Below are positions 26,955 through 39,890 of a stretch of 64,000 bases of DNA, piece after piece; position 1 is the first letter of the stretch, and the number at the start of each line of letters is the position of its first letter. Below the pieces are notes generated by a model. It ran no database searches and was not told where the DNA came from. It saw only the letters and a program-made list of their open reading frames with translations. The translations under genes and the position numbers were made by a program. Source of the DNA: Paracyclopina nana (Eukaryota > Arthropoda > Copepoda > Cyclopoida > Cyclopettidae); contig JAGUCH010000002.1 of the NCBI GenBank assembly GCA_019096065.1, positions 11,792,501-11,856,500 on the forward strand. Direction: 5' to 3'.

Positions 26955-27046
26955 TAATATCTTATGAAAAAAATTATTGAAAGATTGTGATAAAATAGTG
27001 TTTTATATTCTGTTCGTTTGAAATATACCATTAAAAGTTGTGCTTT

Positions 27047-28140
27047 CTAACTGGAGCTGTCCGTGAGCCAGAGGTTGTCTTCGAATCGCCATAGTCCCAC
27101 GTTGAAAGCATGTAGCCTTACCTGATCCATTTCAGAATCGTTCACTGGCCTGTCGATCTCTTCGTATTTTGTAAATCCTTCGCGAGCTCTGTTTTCACCC
27201 ACACCAACTCGAAAGGTTGGACGATATTGCTCCATTATGTTAACATATGTATCTTTGGAGATTTCTTGAGCTAGGAAAGTCATGATTTCCTTTCCCTCTT
27301 CCACGTATGAAGGCATGACTAGGTGCCTGACTAGAAGGCCTCTCTTGGCAATCCCTTGCTGATCAAAGACCAAATCGCCCACTTGCCTGTGCATTTCCTT
27401 GATCACTCGTTTCGCCACTTCAGGATAGTCTCTGGCTTTGCAAAGCCTCGAACTAGTCTCTGGGGTCCAAAATTTGAAGTCGGGCATGTAGATATCGACA
27501 ATGCCATCTAACAGCTCCAATGACCTAATGGAGTCATAGGAGCTCGTGTTATACACGATAGGCAAGCTGAATCCCATTTCAACGGCCTCGTGTATAGCCT
27601 CAATGACTTGGGGAACCACGTGCTCCGGAGTGACGAAATTGACATTATGACACCTTTAATTGATTATTATTATTGCTACACTCAGTCATAAACTGCAAAT
27701 AATGGCTATAATTACTTGGTTTCGTTTTGCAGCTTGAGCATCAAGTCAGCAATTTCCTTGGCGTTCAGCTCCCAACCTCGCTTCTTTTGGCTAATGTCCC
27801 AATTTTGACAGAAGACGCACCTGAGGTTGCACATTCCAAAGAAGATGGTACCGGAGCCATTCCAACCTTGGAGAACCGACTCCTCTCCAAAGTGAGGAAA
27901 AGCTGAGCTGACAATTGCTTTGCGGCCAGTGTTGCAAGCACCCATTTTGTTCTCGAGTCGATTCACTTTGCAATCTCTAGGACAAGCTCTGCAATCTCGC
28001 AATTCTTCGACAGCCTCAGATACTCTGGTTTTGAGTAAGCCAGACCTATGAGCTTTGATGCACTGTGGTTCATAGTTTTCGACGAGAAATGGCGGTGCCA
28101 GGTGGAGAAGACGATTCCTTGCCAATTGCCGAAAAATCAT
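27047..28140 (-). CDS. Radical SAM protein of the PflA-like COG1313 family
   Basis: Two exons, 27716-28140 and 27047-27653, joined by a 62-nt GT-AG intron in phase, give 343 aa. The radical SAM CxxxCxxC is CNLRCVFC (Cys104, 108, 111), binding the 4Fe-4S cluster that cleaves S-adenosylmethionine. An N-terminal Cys set (CRACPRDC and a Cys at 69) is typical of the PflX/AmmeMemoRadiSam-like branch. VNFVTPEHVVPQV follows in the second exon. The first residues (MIFRQLARNRLLHLAPP) look like a mitochondrial targeting peptide. The family is mostly prokaryotic and patchy in animals; the spliceosomal intron shows this is a genuine nuclear gene. The substrate is unknown. It converges with VPS13B, with stops 92 nt apart. 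Confidence 0.82.
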
Positions 28141-28370
28141 GTTTACGACTTTAAAATCAGAAATATCAACCAAAGTTGCAAAGGCAACGGAAGAAGTTAT
28201 TTCAAGCTGTCATTTTGCGAGCTTTGTAGCTTTTTTCCGTCAAAGTTTGTTTTGATAAGCTTTTCGTAATTCAAACTGTGGCGGGAAACTTTCAAGCTCA
28301 GCTGCTCATTGCTCAGGCTTCAAAGTTGAATTGATGAGTTGAACTCGTTGAGCTCAGCGTGGCTCTTCAC

Positions 28371-28406
28371 TATAAATAGTCGACATACTGGTTGAGCCGT
28401 TCAGTT
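28371..28406 (+). promoter_or_regulatory. TATA box and initiator of the Cys-rich secreted protein gene
   Basis: TATAAATA lies at 28371-28378 and TCAGTT at 28401-28406. The 32-nt distance from TATA to the initiator A is the textbook arrangement, and TCAGT is the arthropod-style initiator. The ATG follows at 28432, leaving a short leader of about 29 nt. Confidence 0.75.
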
Positions 28407-28431
28407 CGGTTATAGCTGAAGCCACGTCGCC

Positions 28432-29880
28432 ATGTTCCGGAAGGTTGTCCCCTTTTTAGTCTTGACCTCGGTTGCCCTGGGGCTGCCCAATTACCCTACC
28501 GCCTCGAAACCTTCTAGCTACAGTGGGACGTCGGTTGGAACGGATGCCTCAAGCTCGGGATATGGGTCGAGTGGAACTCCCAGCTACGGTGGATCGACTC
28601 AAAATTGCCGAATGGAGGAGGAGACGGTGTACACTGACAAATGCGAGAGCTACAACGAGCAGGTGTGCTACACCACCCACCAGGAGCAATGCGACGATAT
28701 CCACGACCAAAACTGCCGAGCCATCGTTTCCGGAGCACAGAGTCGGCAATGCTTCAATGTAACCGAGCTCATTTGCAACCTGAAGGAGGAGATCCAATAC
28801 GACGTGGTTCAGGCTGTCTACACTGTTCAAAAGTGTCACAAAGTCACTGGTATAATTTTGCATATTTCAAAGTAAGGTCAACACATTAATTTCCTTTGTT
28901 TTTAAGAACGTGTGTGCGATACTGTGTACGCAGTGAGCTTCTCTGCCAAGGACGACTTCCAATGCGTTAACATTCCCAATCCTGTTTGTACCACTGAGGA
29001 GAAGACTGTCTACGAGAAGACTTGCAGAACCGAGACCATTTTCGACTGTAGCAACCTTGAAGAACCAACCTCGTTCCGTACTGAAATGGAAACTGAATCA
29101 CGAGGAGCTTCTTACGGATCATCCACTGGATCTTCTGGTTCAACTGGCTACTCTACAGGCTCTGGTTTTGCTTCCGGTTCTTCCTCTACTTCCGGTGGAT
29201 ACTCTGGCTCAACCGCCAATGGTGGCTATGCTTCTAGCTCTACTGCCGCACCAACTGGATATGGTGGCTCTACTACAACTGCTGGTAATCTTTAACGTTA
29301 GTCACTAAATCTGTTGGATGGTACATCGGGAATTTAATTTTTAGCTTGCCAACGCCGCCAGGAGACCAAATGCTATACTACTCCTCGTCAAGTATCGTCT
29401 CAAAGCTGCACTCGCTCCGAGGAGAAGGTCTGCGAGAAGTTGAACATTCGCGTGCCCTTCCCTGAGGAGAGGCAAGTCTGCCATAACGAGGAGAAAAAGG
29501 TGTGCGAGCTTGAGCAGAAGACCCAGCCTAAGCAGATCAAGAAGTACGTCTATAGCAAGTCCTGTAGGTCTGTGCCCAAGAGGGTGTGCGAGAATGCCGA
29601 TTCCAAGACTCTGGTTCCATCCTGCGTGCCAACCACTCGCAAGATGTGCCACTCTACTCCATCGGAGAAATGCGAAGATATTCCCAAGCAACAATGCTTC
29701 AAGATCCCCAGCATTGTCCGCAAGCAGAAATGCGAGACCGAGACTTCTTCTGGATATTCCGCTGGATCGTCTTCTACCTCATCTGGATATACTGCAACCA
29801 CTTCCACGACTACATCTACAGGATACACTGCTTCCAAACCGACTGGAACCACGGCCACTTTCTCCGCTACCTACCAGTAA
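28432..29880 (+). CDS. Secreted Cys-rich protein with low-complexity Ser/Gly/Tyr linkers
   Basis: Exons 28432-28849, 28907-29284 and 29345-29880 (introns of 57 and 60 nt) give 443 aa. A signal peptide (MFRKVVPFLVLTSVALG) leads. Three Cys-rich blocks of the pattern C-x(3-8)-C with many E, K, V and T residues follow (for example YTDKCESYNEQVCYTTH, TEEKTVYEKTCRTE, RSVPKRVCENADSK). They are separated by S/G/Y/T-rich spacers. Proteins of this style are common in crustacean and insect cuticle or secretions, but I cannot name a family. The clear TATA promoter suggests high or regulated expression. An AATAAA lies at 29937. Confidence 0.8.
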
Positions 29881-29936
29881 ATTGTCTAGTCTCTCTATGA
29901 ACTTGAAACATTTATTTCTTAAGAACTGATGCAGCT

Positions 29937-29942
29937 AATAAA
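29937..29942 (+). promoter_or_regulatory. Polyadenylation signal AATAAA
   Basis: A perfect AATAAA 57 nt after the stop of the Cys-rich protein gene and only 13 nt before the stop of the convergent minus-strand gene. The two transcripts probably overlap at their 3' ends. Confidence 0.6.
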
Positions 29943-29954
29943 GCGTTATGGGTT

Positions 29955-32587
29955 TTAAGCTACTTCAGTCGAGTTGTAATTTTTAGCTAGCTTATCGAGA
30001 GCGTTCAGCAACAATTGTTCCAAGCTTAAAGCTTTCGTTGTTTGTGCGATTTCGGTTGAGATTATGGATGATGGTGTATTAGTGTCTGCAACGTATGGAA
30101 TTTTGGTCGTTTCATCTTCTGTTTTCATATCAATAGTAATTTCTGCTGTTGTTAATTCTGTAGCTTGTAGTGATTTGGAGGAGGACTTTGTCGTCGTTTT
30201 TGCTACTGGGGAATAACTTGTTAATTTTGCTTGAGGGGAATAACTGATTTCTTTAGGGAAGTATTCTATGCGGTCATTAGTAGTAGAGTGTTCAATGCTT
30301 GAATAAGAGGCCCGTTCGCTGGCTTCTATTGGGGCAGACGTTATTCCCCCGTGATTAGGTGAGGGTTCAGGATCAATTTTGGTCATATCCTCTAATGTCG
30401 AGCTCAGCTCGGTCGTGCTACTAGTTTTTTCGGAAATTCGTCTACTTTGCTTCTCTGTCACGGTTTCAATCGAGTTGGGCCTACGAAATATGTCGAAATT
30501 AAAAGTTTTCTTTGCCCATGCATGCATTTTCATGTCAATCTCTGGGTTGGCAGCCATTTTCGCGTGCTCTTGAGTCATGCTGTGCTCCCATTTAGGTTTC
30601 AAGTCATAAGGCCCCCATTTGGATAAAGGCCTCACTGTCCCTCTCATTGGTGGATGCGTTGAGGGTATCTTTGGCTTGAGTGTGGTCACCTCGGGATCAA
30701 CTATGGTGCGGTTCTTCTTGCTGGTGTCTATGGTGAATGTGTGCACTGCCAAAACAAGACCGTTGGGCTGGATGCCGCCATATATGATGATCATGACCAC
30801 GGCTAAAATGATGGCAAAAAGGAAGAGCACCACAAAAATGGCTGCATGCCTTTGTCAAATCCTTTCAGCCAATTCGTCTCGCAAAGCTTGTCGTTTCCTC
30901 TTGAGGAACAGCTCTCGAGCAATGCGACTTGATGACGAAGCAGTGGATGTGGAGAAAGTGTCTGAGGAAACAAATGATGAGCTGCTCGTGGTGGATGAAG
31001 TGGTGGAGAAAGGAGACATGATACCAGATAAGAGACTTCGCCTAAATGTATAGAGAGGAAGCCTACCACAAAATCTTCATTTTTTTCGTAAGTGCAATTA
31101 TTTCACCTTTCAGCCGGATGGTTACAATAAATGATATCTTCAAATGTGGTTTCGCTGTCTTGTCCATCCTCGCATTCAATGATCAAGGAAGCCTAGGTAC
31201 AAAATATTCACTTTTCACTTTTTAGGATTGAATGACCCTATCTGTAGATAGGAGATATGGCTTTTTAGCCTCGATAACTGATTCCCTAAAATTGAGATAT
31301 TCATGGTCAATCAACTTATTCATGCAAGGAGAATCAGCTTGTTAACCCCCGAATGAACCCTAAGGAATCAATGTTCTTCGAAAAAAATAGTTGGAAATTA
31401 AAATGTAAGTCTAATCACATCCGCCATCCCCAACTTGAAATTCTGAACCCTTATATGCCAAAAAAAGCCTCGGTGAAACTTATGGGCATAGGTAAAGTGT
31501 TTAAAAAAAAAGATAAATTGCAAAATATTCACACGTAGTATTCACACCTACGTGTGAATTTTCGCGTTTTATTTTCACGGTCAATTTCTCGTTTTGGTGT
31601 AAAACGATAAAATAAAAATGATTTTTTTTTCTAATCACACTACATTTGAAAAGTATGAGCATCATTTTTTGGACAATTTCTTCCATCTGAACTCATTTTT
31701 TATGTTTTTTGATTGTCCTCAGCGCTGCTTCTTAACGTTTAGGCCGATTTCATATAAGCAAGCTCAAATAAGCAAGGTACTTTGGAGGCTTATAGCTCAG
31801 CAACTACTGAATCGATTGGCGCCAAATTTGGTAGGATTCATTAGAAGAGCATAATAAGCCACCATGCTAAATTTCAACTGGATCTGATGATCCCCTCCAT
31901 AGGCTGACTTTACCTGCCCAAAAAGACAAGCTAGGTACCTAGCTTTGCTGATAAAATGGCCTCGACTTTACGGCCTCGGAACTTAACCAAATTGGAAACA
32001 CAGCTGTTTGTTGACATTTTGATGAACCATACCAAATTTGGTGCCAATACATTCAGTATTTGCTGAGCTATATGCCTCCAAAGAACCTAGCTTAGCTTGC
32101 CTTAGCTTGGCTTCGATAATATGAAATCGGCCTAAATGAGTTATGCAAATAAAATAGGACTAGTTAAAAATTCTATAACAAAGCCTTTTGTTATATTTAG
32201 TATATTTAACATTAAGATGGTCCTAACTTACCATTGTAGTGCTAAGTTAATGTATTCAATGATTGTGGAATGGCTTTCTTGTGTATTAAGATAGCTCACA
32301 ACTATTGACTCTCAGTGCTCTCTCATGATAAATACATAGCCATTAGCTCAAAACTTTATATAAGCATGTAACATAATTACATAAACTCAACCTGGGTAAA
32401 ACGAAGGAGTGCTTACGCGTTACAATAACTTTCAGAAAACGTAGAAAAAATTCTGGTTGGGTCACAAATGTCAGTTCATGCAACTTACGATGTCACCTCT
32501 TTCAGCCCTGATTCTGCACGGTCTTCCAGCTGTCCTCGTTGCTCCTCCATGGTTTCGGCCAGAGTTTTCTGAAGAGGTTCCAGACAT
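29955..32587 (-). CDS. Single-pass membrane protein gene interrupted by an in-frame TGA
   Basis: Exons 32489-32587, 31107-31192 and 29955-31041 join in phase. The N-terminal part includes a Ser/Thr-rich tract and a basic helix (RIARELFLKRKRQALRDELA). It ends at a TGA at 30855-30857, followed directly in the same frame by 299 open codons. Those start QRHAAIFVVLFLFAII (a membrane helix) and continue with a Pro/Ser/Thr-rich ectodomain to TAA at 29955. No ATG precedes the helix after the TGA. The TGA is followed by C, the leaky readthrough context. Options are programmed readthrough, a nonsense allele (CGA to TGA), an unseen splice, or two proteins. I recognise no family. The start ATG at 32587 is the least certain boundary: exon A is open on all three frames and may instead continue from TMEM26. 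Confidence 0.5.
31527..31559. repeat. 12-bp perfect hairpin
   Basis: ATTCACACGTAG and its exact complement CTACGTGTGAAT flank a 9-nt loop. It lies in the long intron between the first two exons of the membrane protein gene. There is no U-run after it and its function is unknown. Confidence 0.6.
31738..32136. mobile_element. About 400-bp MITE with about 110-bp inverted arms
   Basis: The left end reads TTTAGGCCGATTTCATAT and the right end ATGAAATCGGCCTAAA. The arms continue in near-complement through GGAGGCTTATAGCTCAGCAA and CCAAATTTGG for about 110 bases, with scattered mismatches. The centre is unpaired and has no ORF. A diverged relative is found at about 41993-42237. It lies in an intron of the minus-strand membrane protein gene. 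Confidence 0.7.
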
Positions 32588-33038
32588 CGAGGCTGTGGTT
32601 CGAGATTCGAGGCTGGAGCCTCTGTTGATGGAGGGGCAACTAAACAACTAAAGAATTAAGAGCAAAACTCTGCGTGGGACATGTTGCACATATATAGCAA
32701 GTTGACAAATGGTGAGCCATAATTGGCCTGTCATGCAATCCCCAATTTATCATCAGTCGACCTTTGAAAGGCCATCGTGGAAAAGTCTCTATAGGGAAAG
32801 CTGGGTGAGTCAAATCTGGCGCAGCAATAAAAACCAAGCCCGCGGCCAACTTCCGTGGAGGTATAATGATGCCATATCATCATCATCATCTACGTACTCG
32901 CACCACATATGGCTCATATAAGTGCGAGAACTTCATTCAATTAGAGTGCCAAGATGAAGCCTGACCGCGGACTTTAGGAGCCCCCGTTTTTCATATCTGC
33001 TCCTCTCTATATATGTACGGAACGAGGTGAAAAGCAAC
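32588..33038. other. Spacer between TMEM26-like and the downstream membrane protein gene
   Basis: Mostly non-coding. On the minus strand an acceptor (TTGTTTAG ending at 32640) would extend exon A to 32639. The TMEM26 stop overlaps a good donor (CGA then GTGAGT). If both were used, the reading frame would run straight from TMEM26 into the next gene. ATCATCATCATC is a short simple repeat near 32877. Confidence 0.4.
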
Positions 33039-35420
33039 TCACTCGTTTGAAGTCATATTAGCGCTGTTCCTCTGCAAAAGCGGCACGGACTCTTCGACGT
33101 CACCATCATCGTCCTCAGTGTTTCTTAGCTTTCCAATGGGCTATTTGAAATTTGAAATTTTAATTATTACTTCTACTGTGATCGAAGCATTATTACTGGG
33201 ACGCTCCTCTCGATGTTGGCCTCTTCGTCATTTTCGAGGCTGGGCACGCGAATGTTGTTTAGGGTGTCATCTCCATCGGAGGTTAGCGGCTGTCTCTGCG
33301 CACTTTCATGCACCACCTCGACCTGAACAATCTCATCTTCTTGAATAACGGAGCGTTCTCGCAGGAGGCTTTTGCGTCGCTCTTGGGCCGTTCTTGGTTT
33401 AATTTGGGCTGTAGGAGGATCCCGCACTGGCCTAGCTCGTGAATTGGAGGATGAAGACGACCTCTGTGGAACTGGGTTGGCAACGCTCACTTGTCTGTCA
33501 CCGCAGTGGCAACGTGGGGACTGGCAGCTCTCTTCGGTGGAAAACGTACGAGCTGATTGCAGCCTGCCATGATTGGAAGTCCGATCACGACTTGCGTGGT
33601 GGTGACGAGTGCGCCGTGACTTGCGCCCTATTTCAATAATGAACTGCATATACATGCAAATGATGAAAAAGCCCGCTAATTAATTACCAGAGGAGGATCT
33701 GTGACGGCTTTTTCGCTGCCGATCCGCGACGTCATCGACGACGATTCTTCGCGAGGATCTCGAGGATGAGACCTGATTGCTGTTGGTGGCTTTCACTTTG
33801 TCGGCTTTTTTCTTGGCTCGCATTTTCTGCTCGTTCGCGAGCGCCTCCCGTTTCTCCAACTGCACAACCATCAGCCGGTAGAACTAGGCTCAATTATAGC
33901 AAATTATGGCTGAAGAAATGAGCATGCCAAAAATATGCAGCACGTAGTACCTGCAGAGTGATGACCAGTGTGTTTTTGCAGGTGAAGAAAATGTTCATGT
34001 AGGAGATGAGCTCGTAGTAGGTGATTAAAAGGAGGCGAAAAACGAAGAAAGGCGCGTCCTGCAATATGATATTGAGGAGGATCTCCCACACGTCAATGGA
34101 GCAGCAAATCTCCTTCGCCCTCTGCAACTTGGTGGGGTTCTCAATTTTGGGCGGTGGATTTTTGCTCGGCGTGAGCAGCACGGTAAATTGCAATAAACTC
34201 CAGGACCAAATGGTCAGCACCATAATGCAGAGCACCTTGTTCGTGTTCACCTTTTCGTCCTGATCAAATCGGAATGAGAGTTTGCACCAATCAATCGGGG
34301 GGAAACTTACTTTGAAAGAGTCGAAAAATTCAATGATGTCCGCCGCCGTGCCAATGCAGACAAGTAGCAACTGGGCCAATTGGTCACGCGTCAAATCTCC
34401 CTTGGGAAGCATCCAACGGCCGATGATCAAAATCAACATGAGAAACTGCTCAATGATAACCACCAGTGTGTCGGTGTCAACGGGTATGGCTATATTTTCC
34501 AAATCAAGTGGGATCTACAAAAAATTCATCAACCAGATCTGCGCTCGTGCAAACTCATCGACATGGGCCGATATCGAAAAAGGCAAACATGCTTCATTTT
34601 CGCGTGTAGCTTTCCAAAAAGCAGCCAAAACGCGACGAGAATCAGCAGCCAAAACGAGGAGAAAGCTCCAAGGATGGCCAAGAGAAACTTTTCACTTTGG
34701 TCGCCGATGGCTGCAAAAGCCATCACGGATGATCCAAAAGTGAGGCCAATCCAGACAAAGATCAAATGCGCGACTTTCACTACTGCAGTTGTGTGCAATG
34801 GGCTGATTTCGCCCATTGAAGGCGGAGAGATGTCAATGAACGCAATTTGGTGCAATCTTTCTTGCTCCATGATTGGAAGCTCCGGACACGCAACTGATAA
34901 CTTACCCCAACATCTTTGAGAACACCCAAATCTACGTTGCTGCTGGAATTGCTGATAACAGCTTCCTGGTCAGCATTGTCTTCCCCGCCAATCGCTGCTA
35001 AAGATGGAGATAAGGAGGTGGAAAAAGTATCCAGTATCTCTGTGGTCGTCGCTTCTGAGCTCATCAGCTCCATGCTTTCTTTTTTCGCCAATCTGGTGTC
35101 CAATTTGTCCAATTCAATCAGCCAAATGGAGGGGCACACAGATGCCAAATATAGAAAAATAGAAGGGCAAAACCTAAAAGAAGCAACAATTAAGGCACTA
35201 AAAATGACACTACTTGACGCACTGACCATTTCCATTCTTGGGTCTTTTTTATGGCCAAGGTGAAGACACCCTCAAAACCCAAAATGAGGATGGTTGTGGA
35301 CAAGTACCAGTACCAGGGGTCATTTTTAATGGTCACCACGCGGTAGATGGCAATCACGCCGTGCGCGGAAAATATAATGCGCGTGATGATAGCCTTGATT
35401 GTGTCAATAAAAGAGGCCAT
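33039..35420 (-). CDS. TMEM26: TMEM26-like multi-pass membrane protein
   Basis: Seven exons: 35227-35420, 34906-35173, 34311-34514, 33951-34259, 33688-33883, 33197-33627 and 33039-33140. All join in phase and give 567 aa. Family matches include EWKWFCPSIFLYLASVCPS, FLMLILIIGRWMLPKGDLTR, CIGTAADIIEFFDSF and NTLVITLQFYRLMVVQLE, spread over about eight membrane helices. Human TMEM26 is about 368 aa; this protein is longer through a Lys/Arg/Ser-rich cytosolic tail (about 375-567) without recognisable domains. TMEM26 function is poorly known; it marks the surface of some cell types. A separate ORF lies inside the 391-nt second intron. The stop at 33039 overlaps a GTGAGT donor, so a longer C-terminus is possible. 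Confidence 0.85.
34529..34870 (-). CDS. Two-helix membrane ORF nested in a TMEM26 intron
   Basis: A 113-aa ATG-led ORF on the same strand as its host, wholly inside the second TMEM26 intron (34515-34905). It has a polar start (MEQERLHQIAFIDISPPSM), two hydrophobic helices (about residues 30-53 and 58-85) and a basic tail (KLHAKMKHVC). This charge pattern is what a real small membrane protein would show. I recognise no family. No donor after the ORF would let it serve as a TMEM26 exon, but an acceptor at its ATG (ATCATGGAG) would be in phase with exon 2, so a truncated TMEM26 isoform is the alternative. Confidence 0.45.
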   Translation of the reverse strand: MEQERLHQIAFIDISPPSMGEISPLHTTAVVKVAHLIFVWIGLTFGSSVMAFAAIGDQSEKFLLAILGAFSSFWLLILVAFWLLFGKLHAKMKHVCLFRYRPMSMSLHERRSG

Positions 35421-35960
35421 TGTTCGCAGGACGACGGCCCGCCGTCGACTAAAAGGGCTTTAAAGGACGACGAAAACCTCTACATTCATTGAGCAGTAGA
35501 AAGAAGCTCAAAATTCGTTTTACAATTAGGTTGCATTATGGCCGCTGATGTGATGTTACGGAAGTGCATAAACGCAGCGTAGATTTGAACTCGTTACAGT
35601 TACGTCCAAATCATCAATTTTTGTAATTAAGGTAGCTTTATAAAAAACAAATTCAAGCAGAAAAAATTCAAATTCCATTTTTTAATCTGGCCTAACACAA
35701 CTACTCAACGTAAAATGGCTTAAAGGAGCAATTCAAACAGCTACCAAAATGTTCAAGGTAGCAAACAGAGATTAATTACGATGGATTAATTGAGTGGCAG
35801 GAAAATATTTTACGCTCTAACTTTTTGCAACCTGGCAAAGGATTTGTCAGATTTCACATTTTCATGTAGGCATGGTTTACATGCATGTCAATAAAAACCA
35901 TTTTGCCAACATCAGCAAAATATCGCTCGATATTTTAATCATAATATCGCAGGTGGGATA

Positions 35961-36871
35961 TACTAAAATGCGCGACATGCGCGACATGCGCGACATGCGC
36001 GACAAACTACTAAAATGCGCGAGATGCGCGACTACTAAAATGCGCAACATGCGCGACAAACTACTAAAATGCGCGACATGCGCGACTCCTAAAATGCGCG
36101 ACATGCACAAATACTAAATTATGGGACAACCAAAAGTACTTGGACTATTAATCCATTATTAATGCAAGAATTATATGCAGTCTGTCCGTTCAAAATTGGA
36201 CAATGCTGTAGCCAAAAGTTTATGTTATGAATTCATGAATTTCGAGGCATAATGGGTATAGGTGGAAAGCTTGAACATTTGGACACCTTTTTTATTTTTT
36301 GACCGCATTTAAAGTATTTTTTTCTATTTTGACAAAAAAAAGATGGGGAAAGACTCAAAGCTTTCCAATGAGATTAATTAAGTCCAGTATTTCTTGATAA
36401 TGTAACCCAAAGTTTAGATTCCCACACCGTCCAATTTTGAAAGGACAGAGTACAGACTGTACAATAACAGGCAAAAAAAGGAAAAATGATAATTCTATTT
36501 TTAAGTCTAACATTGAATTTTTTTTCAATTCTTACTTTTTTTCAATTCTAACAATTTTTTTTGTCATTTCTAATATTGCATTGTTTTATCTCCTCTCTGA
36601 TAACTACGCCATAATTTTGGCCGTTACTTTAGGTGAAGAGCTACATCAATGTAATATTTATGAAAAAGCATGACAAATAATCAGTAATAGTAAATAGAAA
36701 AAATAATTCAAGAAGAGGTAAACTAAACATAATTTTTTGCTTGTCGCGCATTTTAGTAGTCGCGCATGTCGCACATTTTAGTAGTCGCGCATGTCGCGCA
36801 TTTTAGTAGTCGCGCATGTCGCGGATTTTAGTTGTTTGTTGCGCTTGTCGCGTATGTCGCGCATTTTAGTA
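35961..36871. mobile_element. Foldback element with GCGCGACAT tandem arms (911 bp)
   Basis: Both ends begin TACTAAAATGCGCGACAT when read inwards. The left arm (to about 36115) and right arm (from about 36745) are short tandem arrays of ATGCGCGAC and ACTAAAATGCGC words in opposite orientation. The centre is an unrelated AT-rich stretch of about 620 bp. A single strand could fold into a long stem. The outer TA may be the target duplication. It has no coding capacity. Confidence 0.7.
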
Positions 36872-38950: not shown

Positions 38951-39890
38951 CTGCAGTACTGCTACAAATGATTGCTGAGATATGCAGCGAACACGATCAC
39001 AGCGAACACGGGCGATCACAGCGAACACAGCAAACACTGCACTGGCGATCACAGCGAACACGGGCGATCACAGCAAACATAGCAAACACGGGCGATCACA
39101 GCAAACACGGGCGATCACAGCAAACACGGGCAATCACAGTGAACACTGGCAATCACAGCAAACACGGGCAATCACAGTGAACAAGGGCAATCACAGCAAA
39201 CACAGGCAGTCACAGCAAACACAGGCAATTACAGTGAATACAGGCGAACACGGGCAATCACAGCAAACACAGGCAATCACAGCGAACACAGGCAATCACA
39301 GCGAACACGGGCGAACACTGGCAATCACAGCGAACATGGGCGATCTCAGTGCTACTGCAGTACTGCTACAAATGATTGCTGAGATATGCAGCGAACACGA
39401 TCACAGCGAACACGGGCGATCACAGTGAACACAGCAAACACTGCACTGGCGATCACAGCGAACACGGGCGATCACAGCAAACATAGCAAACACGGGCGAT
39501 CACAGCAAACACGGGCAATCACAGTGAACACGGGCAATCACAGCAAACACGGGCAATCACAGTGAACAAGGGCAATCACAGCAAACACAGGCAGTCACAG
39601 CAAACACAGGCAATTACAGTGAATACAGGCGAACACGGGCAATCACAGCAAACACAGGCAATCACAGCGAACACGGGCAATCACAGCGAACACGGGCGAA
39701 CACTGGCAATCACAGCGCGAACATGGGCGATCTTAGTGCTACTGCAGTACTGCTACAAATGATTGCTGAGATATGCAGCGAAAACGATCACAGCAAACAC
39801 TGGCGATCACAGCAAACACGGGCGAATACAGCGAACACAGCAAACACTGGCAATCACAGCGAACACTGGCGATCACAGTGAACATTTAAT
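38951..39890. repeat. Minisatellite with 19-bp unit and higher-order repeat of about 390-400 bp
   Basis: The basic unit is ATCACAGCAAACACGGGCG with variants (GCGAACAC, GTGAACAC, GGCAATCAC). A distinct marker (CTGCAGTACTGCTACAAATG, followed by ATTGCTGAGATATGCAGCG) interrupts it at 38951, 39355 and 39742. The first two higher-order units also agree in the order of variants, showing amplification of blocks. The open frames across it are by-products of a unit lacking stops. Confidence 0.85.

Follow-up and report, generated by a model that had tools for sequence, protein, structure and literature searches.

The interrupted reading frame

The window analysed here is a stretch of 64,000 nucleotides (G000:C2:11792501-11856500) from a genome of 92 Mb in 10 contigs. 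Its minus strand holds a reading frame that is open from 31076 to 29958 except at a single stop, a TGA at 30855-30857 followed by C. On the 5' side of this stop 73 codons are open (31076-30858), of which 54 are counted from an ATG at 31019-31017; as this ATG is in frame, reaching the TGA requires no splicing. On the 3' side 299 codons are open as far as a TAA. The features of the locus are as follows.

31419..31427, minus strand: possible first coding exon, ATG GCG GAT, donor score 4.35 (from splice-site scores)
31107..31192, minus strand: probable upstream exon of 86 nt, joined in frame through a 65-nt intron at 31042-31106 (from splice-site scores)
30803..31106, minus strand: best splice rival, 304 nt, removing the TGA and the first half of the helix (from splice scores)
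30858..31041, minus strand: exon preceding the TGA, holding the ATG at 31017-31019 and 54 codons, MSPF...LAERI, whose basic stretch adjoins the helix (from codon usage)
30842..30928, minus strand: hidden intron of 87 nt put forward by the earlier sequence-only reading, rejected (donor -0.99, acceptor 0.34)
30855..30857, minus strand: in-frame TGA, next base C, in the context AGG ATT TGA CAA AGG (read in the sequence)
29958..30854, minus strand: 299 open codons after the TGA, comprising QRH, the helix and 274 residues (from reading frame and codon usage)
30780..30845, minus strand: membrane helix AAIFVVLFLFAIILAVVMIIIY, with a mean hydropathy of 3.64 in its best 19-residue stretch (from hydropathy)
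29955..29957, minus strand: TAA, natural end of the frame (from reading frame)
29911..29916, minus strand, beginning at 29916: AATAAA polyadenylation-type hexamer, about 40 nt 3' of the TAA (from the sequence)

The 299-codon run after the TGA is not due to chance. At the frequency of stop triplets in unassigned DNA (5.5%; both strands, 264 kb), 0.0006 runs of at least this length are expected, and none of 2000 mononucleotide shuffles of the 299-codon ORF remained open. Among 13 701 stop-to-stop frames in unassigned DNA, the target excluded, one was as long (433 codons; the next were 282 and 242), and this one is possibly a gene overlooked by the gene finder, so that the unassigned set may contain missed genes. 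The sequence-only reading, which had pointed out a TGA-C within a long minus-strand frame continuing for 299 codons, is thus borne out by both the sequence and the chance estimate. Apart from the stop, the gene looks intact, with start, helix, TAA, AATAAA and open frame all present. The TGA occupies codon 55, or codon 94 if the two upstream exons are coding.

An in-frame UGA in an animal gene brings to mind decoding as selenocysteine. However, the single Rfam hit obtained in 27000-36000 at E ≤ 1 was not a SECIS element, and the interval from TAA to AATAAA is just about 40 nt. This explanation is largely refuted, and we regard it as extremely improbable.

Predicted protein and search for relatives

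Read through the stop, the residues run in the order Ser-rich tail, basic segment RIARELFLKRKRQALRDELAERI, stop, QRH, helix and outer region. The predicted helix begins at the fourth codon after the TGA, and the outer region comprises 274 residues from GGIQPNG onward, rich in Thr, Ser, Lys and Glu, with no Cys and with two N-glycosylation sequons. The product resembles a type II membrane protein, with a cytosolic tail that is Ser-rich and then basic, one helix and a Thr/Ser-rich outer region; the type II topology is suggested by the basic residues N-terminal to the helix. Basic residues flank the TGA on both sides and run into the helix like one continuous juxtamembrane segment, a point in favour of a recent nonsense change. 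The first in-frame ATG downstream of the TGA is at 30794, within the helix, so the claim of the sequence-only reading that no new start precedes the helix holds.

Searches for relatives gave little. Either half of the gene matched just the gene itself at E ≤ 10 in its own genome (92 Mb, 10 contigs), that is, one match for each half in the single genome examined. No Pfam family scored above its curated cut-off (the best, Renin_r, reached 14.5 bits against a cut-off of 27.8), and a search of the PDB returned no related solved structure. The 299-codon part had no relatives in collections of viral and prokaryotic contigs. The gene is probably an arthropod one with a Ser/Thr-rich outer part.

Coding signal on the two sides of the stop

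The codon-usage test considers synonymous codon choice only, and compares a segment with gene windows and with non-coding windows. By this test the 54 codons before the TGA reach 0.105 per codon, which places them at rank 0.516 in a set of 667 gene windows and at 0.978 in one of 7211 non-coding windows. The corresponding values for the 54 codons that follow the stop are 0.149 per codon, 0.654 and 0.992. Synonymous codon usage therefore shows no step across the TGA, and its fall occurs further 3'. The last 245 codons score -0.101 per codon, ranking at 0.008 among 127 gene windows and at 0.601 among 1759 non-coding windows. This drop in codon bias over the C-terminal part (30692-29958, minus strand) occurs despite the open frame, and between about 30269 and 30045 the third-position GC is 0.24–0.32, the gene median being 0.55. 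A tail that is open yet without codon bias suggests a sequence that is fast-evolving, weakly expressed or young.

Other measures are less generous. The Markov scores of the 54 codons before and after the TGA are equalled by 3.5% and 3.9%, respectively, of 2469 open non-coding windows, while the gap between true frame and other frames is matched by 60% and 27% of open windows; the evidence that both flanks are coding is accordingly moderate, not strong. In frame, the 299 codons score 3.3 bits. The other two frames of the strand score -270 and -349, and those of the plus strand between -123 and -303, differences that are partly due to stops in those frames. Per codon the in-frame score is 0.01 bit, below all 66 predicted genes (0.08–0.37), although these had been pre-selected for a total coding score of at least 15 bits. 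The interrupted gene, with its low score, was missed by the gene finder. In short, the post-stop frame is longer than chance allows, with gene-like codon usage in its first 54 codons and non-coding-like usage in the remaining 245.

These data bear on the two leading explanations of the TGA. Gene-like usage over 54 codons on either side, with no step, favours a recent nonsense change, as does the presence of one stop only between 31076 and 29958, with none in the 299 codons that follow it. The non-coding-like usage of the last 245 codons speaks on the other side, since low-level translation could also account for it, and rare translation is what programmed readthrough would bring. Nonetheless, the drop falls later than the stop, and the first 54 post-stop codons look entirely like those of a gene; in readthrough regions the scores tend to be intermediate between those of coding and of non-coding sequence (Jungreis et al. 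2016, PMC5100048).

Splicing around the TGA

Alternative splicing could also reconcile the stop with the frame, if the membrane form were made from a spliced transcript with the TGA inside an intron or a skipped exon. To score such joins we used a custom gene finder trained on the window and 200 kb around it, with introns and genes of the target area excluded. Its splice-site models derive from 163 predicted introns of 45–90 nt, which are predictions and not transcripts. Among predicted introns 141 of 230 measure 50–69 nt. In 20 of the 163 the length is divisible by three and a single in-frame stop is present, so introns of this type are common here.

Three candidates were considered: 31106 to 30803 with an ATG at 31167, exon 31107-31192 joined to 30849, and the 30928 to 30842 intron of the sequence-only reading. 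The last, a weak donor CAA/GTCGCA joined to GCATGCAG, is rejected, as both its sites resemble average background GT and AG. The donor scores -0.99, lower than any GT donor used in training (only two sites, both GC, are weaker), and is equalled or beaten by 56% of 26 058 background GT sites. For the acceptor, GACAAAGGCATGCAG, the score is 0.34 (rank 3/163), a value that 48% of 33 257 background AG sites reach or exceed. The first candidate has a strong donor at 31106 (8.3; 0.6% of background GT as good) and a good acceptor for the exon start at 30802 (7.46; 1.8% of background AG as good). However, this splice removes half of the helix, leaving a best 19-residue hydropathy of 2.1 in a stretch that includes R and K, where the whole helix has 3.64; its 304 nt contrast with the usual 50–69, it turns gene-like sequence into intron, and the start of the model lies in another frame after splicing. 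The second candidate, with exon start 30849, relies on an AAG acceptor that lacks a pyrimidine tract (1.72, rank 6/163).

The comparison of whole models points the same way. With one and two introns and ATGs up to 32480, and within the site-score filters of the script, the best of 311 spliced models avoiding the TGA scored 0.1 bits, about 12.5 below the best of 1255 models through it (12.6); a model beginning at ATG 30794, and so lacking part of the helix, gave 1.7 bits. The scores carry no charge for reading a stop, but a guessed charge of 5–7 bits would not reverse the order. Among the models scored, none offered a well-scoring in-phase splice that removes the TGA and keeps the helix whole. 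We therefore rate splicing as improbable, and count the scores of the models through the TGA, set against those that avoid it or start at 30794, in favour of a frame broken by a nonsense change.

Upstream exons and the neighbouring gene

Of the models through the TGA, the top one (12.6 bits) consists of three exons, 31427-31419, 31192-31107 and 31041 on, while a single-exon model from ATG 31019 scores 11.2. The upstream phased splicing that the sequence-only reading assumed is plausible, with good sites around the 65-nt intron (31106-31042) and an 86-nt exon in frame, but it is optional, ATG 31019 being sufficient. The acceptor of exon 31107-31192 ranks 72/163 and its donor 120/163, and the acceptor of the following exon (31041) ranks 96/163. 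Adding 31419..31427 gives a 93-codon product ahead of the TGA; this possible exon is the weakest part of the gene model.

The letters TAGGCTTCCT precede both the upstream exon and the TGA exon (31195 and 31065, minus strand), and GGCTGAAAGG lies near the end of both (31115 and 30870, minus strand), which may reflect chance or possibly an old duplication. Just upstream, at 33897-35459 on the minus strand, is a TMEM26 gene, two exons of which match PF09772 with E 2e-55 and 2e-18; a long tail rich in Ser and Arg is predicted to extend this gene to about 32.49 kb. A join to this gene is permitted by phase (GAG|GTGACA, 32496 to 31192). It would take an intron of about 1.3 kb and cross an AATAAA at 31573; the gene model does without it, and it was not adopted.

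Genome context and source animal

The TTAGG repeat is the arthropod telomere type, and tandem TTAGG occurs near both ends of contig C1 (9278 matches, with C1 the contig for all among the matches listed). A miR-965 sequence was matched with one mismatch, where a reversed control pattern also gave one match at up to two mismatches; the same site matches the mir-965 model over its full length with 36.8 bits (E 3.4e-5), short of the curated threshold of 43. To our knowledge miR-965 is specific to mandibulates. Together, the TTAGG arrays and the miR-965-like hairpin make a mandibulate, such as a crustacean, the probable source. A miR-282 pattern had no match at up to two mismatches in this genome, and a search for cox1 also came back empty.

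A single wrongly substituted base in the assembly of an otherwise intact gene would explain everything. The TGA site is, however, without homopolymer or repeat, the large contigs and the TTAGG arrays near both ends of C1 suggest a good assembly, and substitution errors are rare in current assemblies. We consider such an error very unlikely.

Several other open frames were seen in passing. At L020:3014-7597 (plus strand; G000:C2:11983014-11987597) frames of 688 and 839 codons lie in the same phase with one TGA, followed by A, between them. An ATG some 30 codons into the second frame, together with the zinc-finger-like sequence there, makes two neighbouring zinc-finger genes the probable reading. 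At 27047-28209 (minus strand) two open frames resemble, as an impression from reading, a bacterial-type radical-SAM activating enzyme, and one of the two had no PDB or Pfam match. An open frame at 38979-39428 (plus strand) is built of repeats such as SQQTRAITANTGNHSEH.

Nonsense change or programmed readthrough

We tentatively favour, at somewhat less than an even chance, the view that a recent nonsense change, either fixed or still polymorphic, has hit a fast-evolving gene. Under this explanation one recent TGA would have broken the frame, the sequenced haplotype would yield mainly a fragment of 54–93 residues lacking the helix, and basal leakage at UGA-C would supply at most a trace of full-length protein. 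In a rough weighing, a disabling variant in the sequenced animal comes out as somewhat more likely than a stop that is leaky by design, and splicing ranks far below both.

Programmed readthrough, the proposal of the sequence-only reading, is a possible but less probable alternative. It would have a soluble peptide of 54–93 residues made most of the time, and a membrane protein made from the fraction read through, as a switch of surface display. In the form of a switch of reversed proportions, with the short cytosolic peptide as the default, almost all of the working protein (the helix and the 274-residue outer region) made solely by readthrough and leakiness setting the dose at the surface, it seems rather unlikely. 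Much of what that proposal started from is real: the stop, its next base C, the open frame and the helix. TGA-C was the leakiest of three contexts in yeast (PMC3609751), and TGA and a following C are enriched in readthrough genes of flies and mosquitoes (PMC5100048); here TGA is the stop in 16 of 51 predicted genes and C the next base in none of the 16, which counts against a nonsense change. The length of the open frame also favours readthrough: it has 299 codons, while in-phase extensions beyond the stops of 51 predicted genes reach 87 at most, with a median of 14. Eight Drosophila extensions with predicted membrane domains, reported in PMC3840789, count for it too; in that study the median readthrough rate of conserved Drosophila extensions is 5.2%.

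According to PMC5100048, most of the insects tested and one crustacean have abundant readthrough, the one arachnid has considerably fewer cases, and the centipede shows no excess; the earlier statement that arthropods use readthrough widely is too broad. The TTAGG arrays and mir-965-like hairpin suggest a mandibulate, possibly of the readthrough-rich clade. For D. melanogaster, PMC5100048 gives an estimate of about 17 recent nonsense substitutions, and 460 as the minimum number of readthrough stops whose second ORF has at least 10 codons; these numbers favour readthrough a priori, gene shape aside.

Gene shape, in turn, favours a nonsense change. Readthrough candidates tend toward a longer first ORF (PMC5100048), and over half of the readthrough regions of Drosophila and Anopheles are estimated at fewer than 10 codons. 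Here the first ORF is very short (54–93 codons) and the extension very long, the opposite of that pattern, although it is a tendency of the class and not an absolute rule. An early stop with the defining domains after it is what random placement of a nonsense change would often give. No stable RNA structure was found in three stretches at or after the TGA (z -0.44, -0.16 and 0.37); among Anopheles candidates downstream structure is predicted in 9% (PMC5100048). The absence of structure, the short first ORF and the lack of a drop in signal at the stop are the points on which the readthrough proposal fares poorly. Motifs found after readthrough stops include CUA and CARYYA, from which the CAAAGG seen here differs.

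If the TGA is read through, its position ahead of a membrane anchor would make this an unusual case, and the animal concerned is probably no model insect. If the TGA is a nonsense allele, it would be an ordinary loss-of-function variant or an early stage of gene loss. Either way it is a useful caution, as automated annotation is likely to truncate the gene at 54–93 codons, drop it or invent an intron for which the splice sites give no support.

Comparison with known systems

The Drosophila genes headcase and kelch have a stop followed by a very long in-frame extension. In this they are like the gene described here, but in both the stop ends a long first ORF.

Readthrough genes of Drosophila and Anopheles more generally (Jungreis et al. 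2016, PMC5100048; Dunn et al. 2013, PMC3840789) share with this gene the UGA, the C that follows it and an in-phase open frame, and some of their extensions have predicted membrane domains, as here. On the other hand, they tend to have a long first ORF and mostly short extensions, in contrast to 54–93 codons and then 299, and they are backed by conservation or ribosome footprints. Recent nonsense substitutions in reference genomes, finally, present an otherwise intact frame that is broken once, with gene-like sequence next to the break on both sides, as is the case here.
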